Below are positions 57,616 to 60,619 of a stretch of 64,000 bases of DNA, piece by piece. The first letter of the stretch is position 1, and the number at the start of each line of letters is the position of its first letter. The position numbers were made by a program, and so were the translations under genes. A model generated the notes under the pieces. That model saw nothing but the letters and a program-made list of their open reading frames with translations. It did no database searches and was not told where the DNA came from. This stretch comes from Pelagibius litoralis. Lineage in GTDB: Bacteria; Pseudomonadota; Alphaproteobacteria; Kiloniellales; Kiloniellaceae. The DNA is taken from positions 1 through 64,000 of the forward strand of contig NZ_JAAQPH010000001.1 of NCBI RefSeq assembly GCF_011683915.1. The letters are read 5' to 3'.

Positions 57616-58209
57616 CTAAGCGCCCGGCTGAGCGGCAACAAGCGTCTGTAGCGAGGCGATGAGGGGGCTTGTCCGCACCACCGTGGCGTATTCACCATTC
57701 AACTGGGCCAGGCTGACCGCGTGCACGTCATCCGGGGACCAAAGGCGGCCCGTCATGTCGCGCAGTTCGCTGCTCGACGTCGCATCTTCGGCAATCCATG
57801 TGCGAAACCCTAGGTTTGCAGCCATACGCACGGTCGCATCGACCGAGTTGTGCAGCAGAACCCCGACAATGATGAGTTCTGTGATGCCGCGGTCGTGAAG
57901 CGATGCCTGCAACCCGGTTTCAATAAATGCGTTGTTGGTCTTCTTCTGGATAACGATTTCACCGGGCCCGGGCGCAAGGCTGTCTTTGAAATCACAACCC
58001 GGCTGACCCGGTCGGTAAGGGGAGCCTGGCTCGGTCGAAAGATGCTGCACGTGAACGACCGGACGCCCCAGATGGCGCCACAATGCCAATAGGTCGCCCA
58101 CGCGCTGTTCGGCATCCGGGTTGTTGCGGCGTCCCCACTTCGGGTCGTCTATGGCCTTCTGGAAGTCGACGATTACCAGAGCCGCGTTATCTGCAATCTG
58201 GTCGGGCAT
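57616..58209 (-). CDS. Isochorismatase-fold hydrolase homologue with Ser in place of the catalytic Cys
   Basis: The 197-residue protein has the cysteine-hydrolase fold: ALVIVDFQKAI with Asp15, a lysine at EIVIQKKTNNAFIETGL (Lys89), and IIVGVLLHNSVDATVRMAAN. In active relatives the position of Ser122 (TCG codon) is the nucleophilic cysteine of the GVxTxxCVxxTxRxA motif. The rest of the fold is intact and the gene has no frameshift, so the protein is probably expressed but either inactive as a cysteine hydrolase, altered in chemistry, or a binding protein. It lies on the same strand as metY and hemB. Confidence 0.85.
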   Translation of the reverse strand: MPDQIADNAALVIVDFQKAIDDPKWGRRNNPDAEQRVGDLLALWRHLGRPVVHVQHLSTEPGSPYRPGQPGCDFKDSLAPGPGEIVIQKKTNNAFIETGLQASLHDRGITELIIVGVLLHNSVDATVRMAANLGFRTWIAEDATSSSELRDMTGRLWSPDDVHAVSLAQLNGEYATVVRTSPLIASLQTLVAAQPGA

Positions 58210-58302: not shown

Positions 58303-59628
58303 TTACTCTGCCGCTGCCGCAGTTCCCCTGGATGCCGCCAGCGCCTGGTCGAGATCGGCCAGTATGTCGTCGATATGCTCGATCCCGATTGAGAGGCGGA
58401 CATAGCCTGCCGTAACGCCCGTTGCGGCCTGCTCCTCCGCCCCTAACTGCGAGTGGGTGGTCGATGCCGGGTGAATGGCAAGGCTGCGCGCATCGCCGAT
58501 GTTTGCCACGTGATAAAACAGCTTCAGCGAATCAATAAAGCGTCGACCGGCTTCGCTGCCTCCGGCCAGCTCGAAACCGACCAGCCCGCCAAAGCCGCCG
58601 GTTAAATAGGCATCCGCCCTGCGCCGGGTTTCGCCTTCCTGCAGCGAGGGATGGATGACCTTTGTCACATCAGGCTGGTTGAGCAGGAACTCGGCCACCG
58701 CAGTTGCATTACGGCTATGCTCGCGAATGCGCAGCGGCAGTGTTTCCAGGCCCTGAATGAACTGAAAGGCATTGAACGGGCTCATGGCATAACCAAGATC
58801 CCTCTGCAGCGTAACCCTTGCTTTCAGGATATAGGCGATAGGCCCCAATGGCTTGGCGGCTTCTGTCCAAACCGCACCATGGTAACTCGGGTCCGGCTGA
58901 TTCAGCAGGGGGAAGCGGTCCGCGTGTTTGGCCCAGTCGAAGGTTCCGCCGTCTACCAGGATGCCGCCGATCGAGGTGCCATGGCCGCCAATGTATTTGG
59001 TCGTCGAGTAGATGACGATATGGGCACCATGCTTCAGCGGCTGACAGATGATTGGCGCTGCGGTGTTATCGACGATCAGCGGAACGCCGATGTCGTTGCC
59101 GATGGCGGCAACCTCGCCGATGGGGAAGACGGCAAGCTTGGGATTGGGCAGGGTCTCGGCATAGTAGGCCCGGGTCCGCTCGTCGGTTGCGCGGCGGAAG
59201 TTTTCCGGGTCGCTCGGGTCGACGAAGCGGACCTCGATACCGAAGTTGTTCAGGGTGTTCGCGAACAGGTTCCAGGTGCCGCCATAGAGGTCGGTCGAGC
59301 TGACGATATTGTCCCCGGAGCGGGCGATATTCTGAATGGCGATGGCGGAGGCCGCCTGACCGGAGGAGACGGCGAGGGCGGCTGCGCCCCCTTCAATTGC
59401 CGTTATGCGCTGCTCCAGGACGTCGCAGGTCGGATTCATGATCCGCGTATAGATGTTACCAAGCTCTTTTAAGGCAAAGAGGTTCGCTGCGTGGCCGGTG
59501 TCCTGAAACTCGTAGGATGTCGTCTGATAGATCGGAACGGCAACGGCACCGGTGTGCGGATCGCTGCGATACCCGGCATGCAGTGCCAGGGTTTCCGGGT
59601 TTGTGCTGGTCTTCGCGGACTCTGTCAT
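58303..59628 (-). CDS. metY: O-acetylhomoserine sulfhydrylase (aminocarboxypropyltransferase)
   Basis: The 441-residue PLP enzyme begins with LALHAGYRSDPHTGAVAVPI and has the PLP lysine Lys211 in IVIYSTTKYIGGHGTSIGG. The longer size and the insert GTFDWAKHADRFPLLNQPD, then YHGAVWTEA mark it as MetY rather than MetB/MetC. It makes homocysteine from O-acetylhomoserine and sulfide (or methionine from methanethiol). The SD sequence AAGGG sits 7 bases before the ATG. Its leader carries two SAM-II-like aptamers and a terminator, so expression should fall when S-adenosylmethionine is high. Confidence 0.95.
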   Translation of the reverse strand: MTESAKTSTNPETLALHAGYRSDPHTGAVAVPIYQTTSYEFQDTGHAANLFALKELGNIYTRIMNPTCDVLEQRITAIEGGAAALAVSSGQAASAIAIQNIARSGDNIVSSTDLYGGTWNLFANTLNNFGIEVRFVDPSDPENFRRATDERTRAYYAETLPNPKLAVFPIGEVAAIGNDIGVPLIVDNTAAPIICQPLKHGAHIVIYSTTKYIGGHGTSIGGILVDGGTFDWAKHADRFPLLNQPDPSYHGAVWTEAAKPLGPIAYILKARVTLQRDLGYAMSPFNAFQFIQGLETLPLRIREHSRNATAVAEFLLNQPDVTKVIHPSLQEGETRRRADAYLTGGFGGLVGFELAGGSEAGRRFIDSLKLFYHVANIGDARSLAIHPASTTHSQLGAEEQAATGVTAGYVRLSIGIEHIDDILADLDQALAASRGTAAAAE

Positions 59629-59689
59629 CTCTGGGCCCTTTCAATTCAAGTTCATTGCGTTGTCATCTCCCCGAGGGGCCCACCTAGAT

Positions 59690-59743
59690 GTGGACTTTTA
59701 GCTTTTGGTCACGCGGAGCAAGCTACCCCTCAAATCACCGCGA
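59690..59743 (-). promoter_or_regulatory. SAM-II riboswitch, proximal aptamer of metY
   Basis: Read on the minus strand, the segment has the SAM-II conserved elements in order: P1 strand CGCGG, TGATTTG, a short loop, GCTTGC, P1 partner CCGCG, an A-rich linker and GCTAAAAG. TAGCTT in the loop can pair with AAGCTA downstream, forming the pseudoknot. SAM-II riboswitches occur almost only in alphaproteobacteria before methionine-synthesis genes. The aptamer ends about 50 bases before the SD; TGGGCCC just after it is complementary to GGGCCCA overlapping the SD, suggesting translational control. Confidence 0.85.
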
Positions 59744-59789
59744 ACCCCTTGGGGGGTCAGGCCGAATGCCGTCGGAAAAAACGGCAAAC

Positions 59790-59819
59790 AAAAAAACCGC
59801 CACGGCTATTCCGGGCGGT
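59790..59819 (-). terminator. Intrinsic terminator within the metY leader
   Basis: On the minus strand, ACCGCC-CGG pairs with CCG-(T)-GGCGGT around loop AATAG and is followed by seven T residues (59796-59790). No gene ends here on this strand; it lies between the two SAM-II-like aptamers, so it is best read as the expression platform of the distal one. Confidence 0.8.
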
Positions 59820-59830
59820 TGTGACCACTC

Positions 59831-59880
59831 GTTTAGCCGCATTTTTTAAGCGCCCGCAAGCTGAGATCAAATCGGCGCTC
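59831..59880 (-). promoter_or_regulatory. SAM-II-like riboswitch, distal aptamer of metY leader
   Basis: On the minus strand the elements are P1 AGCGCC (59879-59874), GATTTG, a 6-base spacer, GCTTGC, P1 partner GGCGCT (59854-59849), an A-rich linker and GGCTAAAC. Order and spacing match the proximal aptamer, with C in place of T before GATTTG, where the base is part of P1 and pairs with G. A TTGACA at 59919-59914 would place a transcription start just before the aptamer, though its -10 box is poor. The 457-base gap 59629-60085 holds only this leader and the promoter of the PAS gene. Confidence 0.65.
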
Positions 59881-60085
59881 TATGTATGAAAAAAAACGCC
59901 TAGCCAGCCGTTTTGTCAAGGATATTATCCGGCGTGTTGCCCGCCCTGTATTTCAATCTAAAGGTGGATTGTCCGGTTGACCACTAAACGAAAATAGTCG
60001 ACAACTATCACGATTTCCGAGCAATTGATTTGTCAACTAATAAGAGAAAATCGCCTCAGGTAGGGGTACTACCGATAGGAATATA

Positions 60086-60619
60086 ATGCCTGAAGATAGC
60101 AAAGAGGCGAAGCTAACTGTCTTTCGGTTGCATGAGGATGGTTATGCGGATGCGGAGGGAGAGCCGCTTGCTGATTGCCCAGAGGTTCTTCTGAAGTTGC
60201 ACGATTACTGGCAGTCGCGCCGCGGCGAGCATGCATTTCCTGCCCGCGCGGATATCGATCCGGTCGATATTCCGGCGCTATTGGAACACCTCCTCCTGGT
60301 TGATGTGCTTGAGGACCCGTTGGACTTTCGCTACCGCCTCGTTGGCGGCCACATCGTCCACCATGCCGGGCATAACATTCAGGGGAAAACGGTGCGGGGG
60401 TTGCTGACAGACGGCAATTCGCCGGAACAGGTGCTGCAGGCCAAGGCGATGGACCTGGGTAAGATGGTTTCGGATTTGAAAGAACCGATCTTTGCCCAGC
60501 TTCGCTATCACTCGGTCTCATCGGATGCTGAGAAGTTTCTTCAGATGGTGCTGTTGCCGTTGGGAGACCGAGGCCGCAACATCAACATGCTTCTTGCCGG
60601 GCTCAATTACTCCTACTAG
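60086..60619 (+). CDS. PAS-domain protein (PAS_5/DUF type)
   Basis: The 177-residue protein has the alphaproteobacterial PAS_5 pattern: LHDYWQSRRGEHAFPARADI, DPVDIPALLEHLLLVDVL, FRYRLVGGHIVHHAGHNIQG and the beta-rich end FLQMVLLPLGDRGRNINMLL. It has no output domain, so it probably senses a small molecule or acts through a partner. Nothing in the neighbourhood indicates the signal. A long perfect hairpin follows 20 bases after the stop codon. Confidence 0.85.
   Translation: MPEDSKEAKLTVFRLHEDGYADAEGEPLADCPEVLLKLHDYWQSRRGEHAFPARADIDPVDIPALLEHLLLVDVLEDPLDFRYRLVGGHIVHHAGHNIQGKTVRGLLTDGNSPEQVLQAKAMDLGKMVSDLKEPIFAQLRYHSVSSDAEKFLQMVLLPLGDRGRNINMLLAGLNYSY

Follow-up and report, generated by a model that had tools for sequence, protein, structure and literature searches.

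Tandem arrangements of SAM-II riboswitches have been described before. A survey counted 44 of them, including some in which the first aptamer is followed by a terminator while the second apparently controls the ribosome binding site (RBS), and termed this arrangement bi-mechanism (PMC9481103). SAM-II itself is described as an OFF switch, with the start site near P1 and with P2 required for binding (PMC1273637). In alphaproteobacteria, metY is the core target of this motif under its other name, SAM_alpha, which was reported only from Rhizobiales and Rhodobacterales in a survey that examined nine Rhodospirillales genomes (PMC4239095). The passages of a further paper that deal with contiguous riboswitches (PMC12452182) contain no discussion of SAM-II pairs. 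The leader described below belongs to the tandem kind, and its second half departs from the SAM-II consensus in a way that recurs across many relatives.

Two SAM-II-type elements before metY

The DNA analysed is a stretch of 64,000 nt (64 kb) from Pelagibius litoralis, referred to here as the window. On its minus strand the leader of metY contains two SAM-II cores, with GATTTG at 59873 and 59736, 137 nt apart, and in each copy GATTTG is followed by GCTTGC and then by GCTAAA. These three motifs in this order and at SAM-II spacing occur exactly twice in the 64-kb window, both times in the metY leader. The features of the leader and the gene are as follows (SD, Shine-Dalgarno).

59914-59919, minus strand: TTGACA, probable -35 box of the metY promoter (from the sequence)
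59848-59880, minus strand: distal SAM-II aptamer, P1 strands GAGCGCC (59880-59874) and GGCGCUU (59854-59848) around GATTTG and GCTTGC (RF00521)
59828-59837, minus strand: distal GCTAAA-C-GAG, comprising GCTAAA and GAG, the 3′ strand of P2, whose partner is loop CTC at 59865-59863 (SAM-II consensus position)
59790-59820, minus strand: intrinsic terminator of the distal switch, hairpin and seven U (by folding)
59744-59757, minus strand: P0 hairpin ACCCC/GGGGT directly upstream of proximal P1 (by eye in relatives)
59697-59742, minus strand: proximal SAM-II-type aptamer, P1 CGCGG (59742-59738)/CCGCG (59716-59712), GATTTG, loop GAGGGG(T), GCTTGC and GCTAAA (59702-59697)
59692-59695, minus strand: GTCC, canonical P2 3′ strand of the proposed SAM-bound state, pairing with GGGT at 59728-59725 and overlapping P3
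59678-59695, minus strand: P3 switch hairpin GTCCAC (59695-59690)/GTGGGC (59683-59678), proposed SAM-free state (permutation test)
59673-59678, minus strand: CCCCTC, P2′ strand, pairing with loop GAGGGG (59731-59726) in competition with P2
59676-59690, minus strand: anti-SD strand CATCT...TGGGCCC, duplex with 59638-59626 of -20.7 kcal/mol
59626-59641, minus strand: SD AAAGGG, GGGCCCA and the metY start codon ATG, the region proposed to be masked (from the sequence)
58303-59628, minus strand: metY, O-acetylhomoserine aminocarboxypropyltransferase, 441 aa, the putatively regulated gene (TIGR01326, 608 bits against a cut-off of 495)

The initial annotation had proposed two SAM-II element orders 137 bases apart on this strand, and both the motif search and covariance matches to RF00521 (SAM_alpha, i.e. 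SAM-II) confirm them. The gathering score of this model is 36 bits, and both matches fall below it, having been obtained by E-value reporting: 33.5 bits (E 7e-6) over 59888-59813 for the distal copy and 17.9 bits (E 0.12) for the proximal copy. Both copies are thus scored by the SAM-II model without reaching its cut-off, and an Rfam gathering search of the 64-kb window calls neither, a tRNA being its sole entry. SAM-V, the other family suggested for comparison, is absent among the eight Rfam matches up to E 10 in 59600-60100, and a SAM-V identity for the proximal copy was ruled out on the lack of a covariance match in the leader. Matches to Bp2_287, RcsR1, DUF3577, sR17 and RAGATH-25 in the leader lie far under their cut-offs and were taken as chance.

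Downstream of metY an ORF at 57616-58209 (minus strand) encodes an isochorismatase-family hydrolase (PF00857); at one related locus (L163) the ORF after the proximal element starts with a stretch that by eye resembles it. The divergent neighbour of the leader, at 60086-60619 (plus strand), encodes a PAS_5/MopJ-like protein, the MopJ model scoring under its cut-off. Outside the window the same genome carries a second metY-like gene (G000:C6:72702-74009), whose protein is 72% identical to that of the window, and second copies that are 71-73% identical are also found in the six other genus members having metY. A metY 77% identical to that of the window occurs in a record titled as a Caldilineaceae MAG (L015), on a contig that may be misbinned.

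In the distal half, no clear -10 box was found for the metY promoter. In 36 of the 37 tandem leaders (defined below), the 60 nt that precede the distal core include a TTGAC. The distal copy has P1, GATTTG, GCTTGC and GCTAAA in order, with a P2 of just 3 bp (CUC/GAG); the core is kept in relatives, and the P2 loop and 3′ strand vary among them. P1 is present in the minimum free energy (MFE) fold of 59886-59790, and the MFE structure of the stretch starting at 59879 contains the terminator without P1. The expression platform of this copy is an intrinsic terminator, a common though not universal platform of SAM-II, and it is conserved in relatives. It had been annotated as a 9-bp hairpin with seven U. 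The U run lies at 59796-59790, and the stem (AACCGCCCGG/CCG-U-GGCGGUU) has 10 bp and a single bulge, with the first U residues of the run supplying two of its bases. The terminator folds at -16.4 kcal/mol (z -1.95), and 10 of 200 shuffles fold equally well. Its 5′ strand (CGCCCG, 59817-59812) can pair with CGGGCG (59856-59851) at the 3′ strand of distal P1, which would make a candidate antiterminator, and this alternative pairing is present in the genus. Just past the terminator, a small hairpin with a T-rich loop (GCCGT/ACGGC, 59768-59785, minus strand) was noted by eye.

Conservation of the arrangement and its wider distribution

A close metY was found in seven of the eight genus genomes searched, that of the window included; the eighth (G021) gave no metY match at E <= 1e-150. 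All seven leaders contain the distal aptamer, the terminator, the proximal aptamer and a GGGCCC at the SD, before the start codon, the last being found also in G005, G035 and G036. In the six other genus members the distal element scores 26.5 to 37.4 bits against RF00521, and up to 38.7 bits elsewhere in the family, so that the scores straddle 36 bits and the cut-off splits the element; an RF00521 match over the cut-off is present in 12 of the 23 genomes of the family. The halves are also found apart. In G005, from a sister genus, they are located on separate contigs, both close to an end. A single SAM-II was seen in each metY leader read from two further genera of the family (three from g2, three from g5), and in the three g2 leaders this is of the distal type with a terminator. 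In G006 a distal-type element occupies the metY leader, and an isolated element of the proximal type lies elsewhere in the genome.

For the wider search a covariance model (R1) was built from nine proximal sequences (seven genus members, G005 and G006). It matches the proximal copies of the six other genus members at E 3e-28 to 7e-25, partly by construction as all six are among the nine rows of the model. In the order, R1 gave 60 matches in 39 of 61 genomes (E <= 0.001). In the class, 38 of 240 genomes drawn had matches (E <= 1e-6), among them the genome of the window and two more from its order; the 27 loci of this search (L208-L234) comprise two in which no core was found by regex. At 80 named metY loci, R1 matched nine below E 1e-10. 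A regex survey of 1100 nt upstream of these 80 metY loci gave a pair at seven, a single core at 10 and none at 63, one locus being almost without upstream sequence. For six of these seven pairs, about 600-870 nt separate the cores from metY downstream, and another ORF lies between; by eye this ORF was taken for an OsmC-like gene, and a Pfam search of two 60-aa fragments of this kind gave no match.

Sixty six of 69 loci were kept and parsed as proximal-type elements, 58 from the order search and eight from the named loci; those dropped were of the distal or another SAM-II type (L206, L207) or a repeat (L010, of L169). Five elements (L189, L199, L200, L201, L205) were placed by hand, as the core regex misses variants. 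An upstream SAM-II core within 300 nt was found for 37 of the 66. A terminator is called between the two cores in every one of these 37 tandem leaders, compared with 8/65 and 10/252 control windows. Three of the 37 calls are near the -8 threshold (L009, L036, L190), and since L009 is a repeat of L190, the 37 include one tandem pair two times. Comparison of leaders, which the initial annotation had proposed as a check, therefore shows the distal copy, terminator and proximal copy kept together in the genus and beyond it.

In another reading, the proximal switch alone would be regulatory and the terminator of the distal SAM-II constitutive, serving as an attenuator or a source of sRNA. Precedents exist in Sinorhizobium meliloti, where SAM-II termination before metZ is predicted to release an sRNA and the terminator of the metA leader is not predicted to be SAM-dependent (PMC9373788). 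However, the three g2 leaders, in which a distal-type SAM-II and terminator stand alone before metY, suggest that this half is able to act by itself, and the alternative CGGGCG/CGCCCG pairing is present in the genus. We regard a constitutive terminator as highly improbable.

A recognised distal core is lacking for 28 of the 66 proximal elements, which mostly stand before other genes. One element of G005 (L155) is at a contig end, where tandem status is not judgeable. The regex found no distal core for 29 elements; upstream sequence was examined for 12 of these, and by eye a degenerate core is present in seven of the 29 (L170, L174, L176, L186, L193, L197, L204). These seven were not counted in the 37. 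Six of the seven (L170, L174, L186, L193, L197, L204) have GCTAAG in place of GCTAAA in the distal SAM-II, followed by a terminator, and by eye five of these six pairs precede siroheme-synthase-like genes (PF13241 on an L174 fragment). It is possible that they represent a variant tandem switch on sulfate assimilation genes.

Competing helices in the proximal element

The proximal copy carries P1 together with GATTTG, GCTTGC and GCTAAA, which are kept with few exceptions across the 66 elements. The general order of the element is P0 - P1 - GATTTGA..GGGC-AGC-TTGC - P1′ - GCTAA-AGC-GCC..., then CCACGG..CCGTGG (P3), then GCCC. Three pairings compete within it: P2 (loop GGC with GCC), P3, into which the CC of the same GCC is drawn, and P2′ (loop GGGC with the GCCC that follows P3). 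To compare them, strands were permuted among 55 representatives of the 66 elements, collapsed at 0.85 similarity, by which relatedness is not fully removed from these tests. The matched mean was reached in 0 of 20000 permutations for the P1 strands, and likewise in 0 of 20000 for P3 and for P2′ (55 representatives each). Compensation in P2′ can be read directly, GAGGGG/CCCCTC in the window being replaced by GAGGGA/TCCCTC in L012 and GAGC/GCTC in L043. For canonical P2, which competes with the better supported P2′, four of 20000 permutations reach the mean. At SAM-II spacing P2 has at least three contiguous pairs in 49 of 55 representatives and at least 2 bp in 54; it is just 3-4 bp in most, fails in L012 (1 bp) and in the window consists of four pairs, two of them G-U. 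Hairpins of GACC..GGTC type but of differing sequence occupy the P0 site in relatives by eye. P0 was dropped as a strong element on its weak permutation support (47/20000, 54 sequences), a test in which fixed-offset strand boundaries fit some rows badly. The MFE fold of the proximal leader is no better than shuffles (z 0.37) and pairs P0/P1 with the P3/P2′ strands.

The view of this copy as SAM-II in type holds for its core. As a description of the whole element a plain SAM-II proved incomplete, since P3 and P2′ are better supported; what is present is a variant with an extra switching hairpin. R1 scores the window's proximal copy, itself in the model, at 100.3 bits. Recent local duplication of one aptamer is not favoured as the origin of the pair, as R1 gives the window's distal copy just 9.3 bits and proximal-type elements occur singly elsewhere.

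That the pair is a chance resemblance could be argued from both copies being under the Rfam gathering score. Order, spacing and flanking elements are nevertheless kept in all seven genus leaders and in other families, and the permutation tests point the same way; given these comparative data, chance is so very unlikely as to be close to negligible.

The 3′ strand of P3 can also pair with the region of the start site. In the window TGGGCCC (59682-59676) matches, as its complement, GGGCCCA (59638-59632) at the metY SD; the start codon lies at 59628-59626, where AGATG is opposed by CATCT. Among relatives this strand is complementary to the leader's own SD in lineage-specific letters: GATTGCTCC/GGAGCAATC in L196, GATGCTCC/GGAGCATC in L187, GGTCTCC/GGAGACC in L177 and GGGCCC/GGGCCC in the window's genus, G005, G035 and G036. 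Over the 55 representatives, anti-SD/SD duplexes with the own partner average -18.5 kcal/mol against -16.8 kcal/mol when swapped (0/20000 permutations). This effect is one of the mean, the median own partner ranking behind 17 of 55, probably because SD strands and GC-rich strands are alike. The masking of the SD by TGGGCCC, as originally suggested, is thus supported both by complementarity and by letters that differ between lineages. P3 and P2′ together can hold the anti-SD strand, and its release would be expected to mask the start site.

Accessibility of the SD was calculated for 24 of the 66 elements, those with the start codon set by hand. It is lower with P2 imposed than with P2′ imposed in 18 of the 24 leaders, higher in two and within 0.02 in four, with means of 0.26 (P2 proxy), 0.47 (P2′ proxy) and 0.30 (unconstrained). 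The corresponding values for the window are 0.59 with P2, 0.71 with P2′ and 0.59 free. In the unconstrained fold the SD is already masked to much the same degree as with the P2 proxy, so the equilibrium calculation by itself shows no switch, and actual switching would require P2′ or folding during transcription.

The low RF00521 score in the proximal half would fit a reading in which the distal SAM-II alone works, with the second copy being either a conserved hairpin for translation control or a relic no longer binding SAM. This sits poorly with the retention of GATTTG, GCTTGC and GCTAAA, which are largely kept across families while the surrounding helices change. Moreover, the 28 elements without a recognised distal core are hardly expected of a relic, and we consider this reading quite unlikely.

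Downstream of the proximal-type elements elsewhere lie metY, genes resembling siroheme synthase (PF13241 on two fragments), an ABC transporter, and several ORFs that were left unassigned. The proximal copies of relatives score up to 28.8 bits against RF00521 (12 loci), and at these 12 loci all 17 RF00521 matches at E <= 0.05 are under the cut-off, the best at 34.5 bits. The proximal copy probably belongs to a coherent and widespread SAM-II subclass, below the Rfam cut-off where scored, in which a P0-flanked core is joined to a built-in three-state switch and which stands by itself before transporter and siroheme-synthase-like genes but forms the second member of the metY tandems. The three states would be canonical P2, P3 with P2′, and the P3 3′ strand with the SD. 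In five lone elements (L183, L184, L194, L199, L200) the masked SD seems by eye to be that of a short ORF preceding the siroheme-synthase-like gene, which suggests translational coupling through a leader peptide.

Proposed mechanism and comparison with known systems

We put at roughly 0.7 the probability that a bi-mechanism tandem SAM riboswitch controls metY. Sequence and comparison point to a 5′ leader in which one SAM-II aptamer is followed by a terminator and another by RBS control, with neither copy at the Rfam cut-off. Comparison supports both cores, the terminator, P1, P3, P2′ and the anti-SD pairing, together with their joint conservation. We infer that SAM is the ligand of both copies and that P2 rather than P2′ forms in the bound state, and likewise the antiterminator, the dose response and the direction in which each switch acts. 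The dual switch of the initial annotation, with distal termination and proximal control of translation, remains the best reading on the covariance and joint conservation.

In the proposed scheme, SAM bound to the distal aptamer would leave CGGGCG held by P1/P2 and away from the terminator, which would then form and stop transcription. Without SAM, CGGGCG would pair with the terminator 5′ strand and polymerase would read on. In read-through transcripts without SAM, P3 and P2′ would hold the anti-SD strand and the start site would be open. With SAM, canonical P2 would take one P3 strand, and the loop from P2′; the anti-SD strand so freed would pair with GGGCCC and the start codon, blocking translation. 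During transcription P3 and P2′ would presumably form first, and SAM, by fixing P2, would prevent this. At high SAM both steps would reduce the synthesis of homocysteine and methionine, and the OFF response would be steeper or double-checked. The OFF direction is favoured as metY is a biosynthetic gene, expected to be repressed by SAM.

The same helices could be read in the opposite sense. Were P2′ the SAM-bound pseudoknot, it would together with P3 sequester the anti-SD strand and open the start site, making the proximal element an ON switch and, with the distal OFF switch, the pair a band-pass. P2′ is statistically the better supported helix, as no permutation reaches its mean, against four for canonical P2; it is longer in the window (6 bp against 4), and its proxy leaves the SD more open than that of P2 in the 18 of 24 leaders noted above. 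On the other side, canonical P2 occurs at the known SAM-II spacing in 49 of 55 representatives, SAM-II is described as an OFF switch for biosynthetic genes such as metY (PMC1273637), and two successive switches answering one ligand in opposite senses, OFF and then ON, would be self-opposing. Since metY is biosynthetic and canonical P2 is placed where SAM-II requires it, the ON reading is rated below the OFF model and is considered unlikely.

This leader offers a clean, conserved natural case for a question left by work on tandem riboswitches, namely whether termination followed by translational control for one ligand gives a steeper or a later-acting OFF response. The halves are separable, each being found singly in relatives (the distal before metY, the proximal before other genes), and so natural single-switch controls exist.

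The initial annotation had held a SAM-II pair on metY not to be a standard arrangement. The kind is in fact already known from the 44 tandems of PMC9481103, among which two SAM-II aptamers with a terminator first and RBS control second are described as in the metY leader; unlike here, the passages describing them give no gene, lineage or P3/P2′ switch. The window's group may be among those 44. No description of the P0/P3/P2′ architecture was found in the literature searched, a search that did not take in the supplement of PMC9481103, and the shared P3/anti-SD architecture, rather than the tandem arrangement itself, may be the new part. Many of the relatives here are Rhodospirillales-type by record title, in contrast to the survey that reported SAM_alpha only from two other orders (PMC4239095). 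Scores below the Rfam cut-off may explain that absence, but 12 of the 23 family genomes do exceed it.

As in SAM-II proper (RF00521, the metA motif; PMC1273637), P1, a pseudoknot P2 and three motifs lie upstream of a methionine gene, the distal copy with a terminator. Unlike it, both copies in the window are under the cut-off, and the proximal one adds P0, P3 and a pyrimidine-rich anti-SD strand. A compact SAM-II from the Sargasso Sea holds the SD itself in the pseudoknot (PMC9373788), whereas the window uses a separate anti-SD strand. The tandem of Pelagibacter (PMC11508383, PMC2704228) likewise has SAM-II first and a second SAM pseudoknot switch after it, acting by termination and then on translation (the terminator as stated in PMC9481103); there the likeness stops, since the second aptamer in the window is SAM-II-type, with GCTTGC/GCTAAA and P3, and has no SAM-V match. 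Taken together, the metY leader appears to be a well conserved further example of a known tandem kind, whose second half would represent a conserved SAM-II subclass lying below the Rfam cut-off wherever it was scored.
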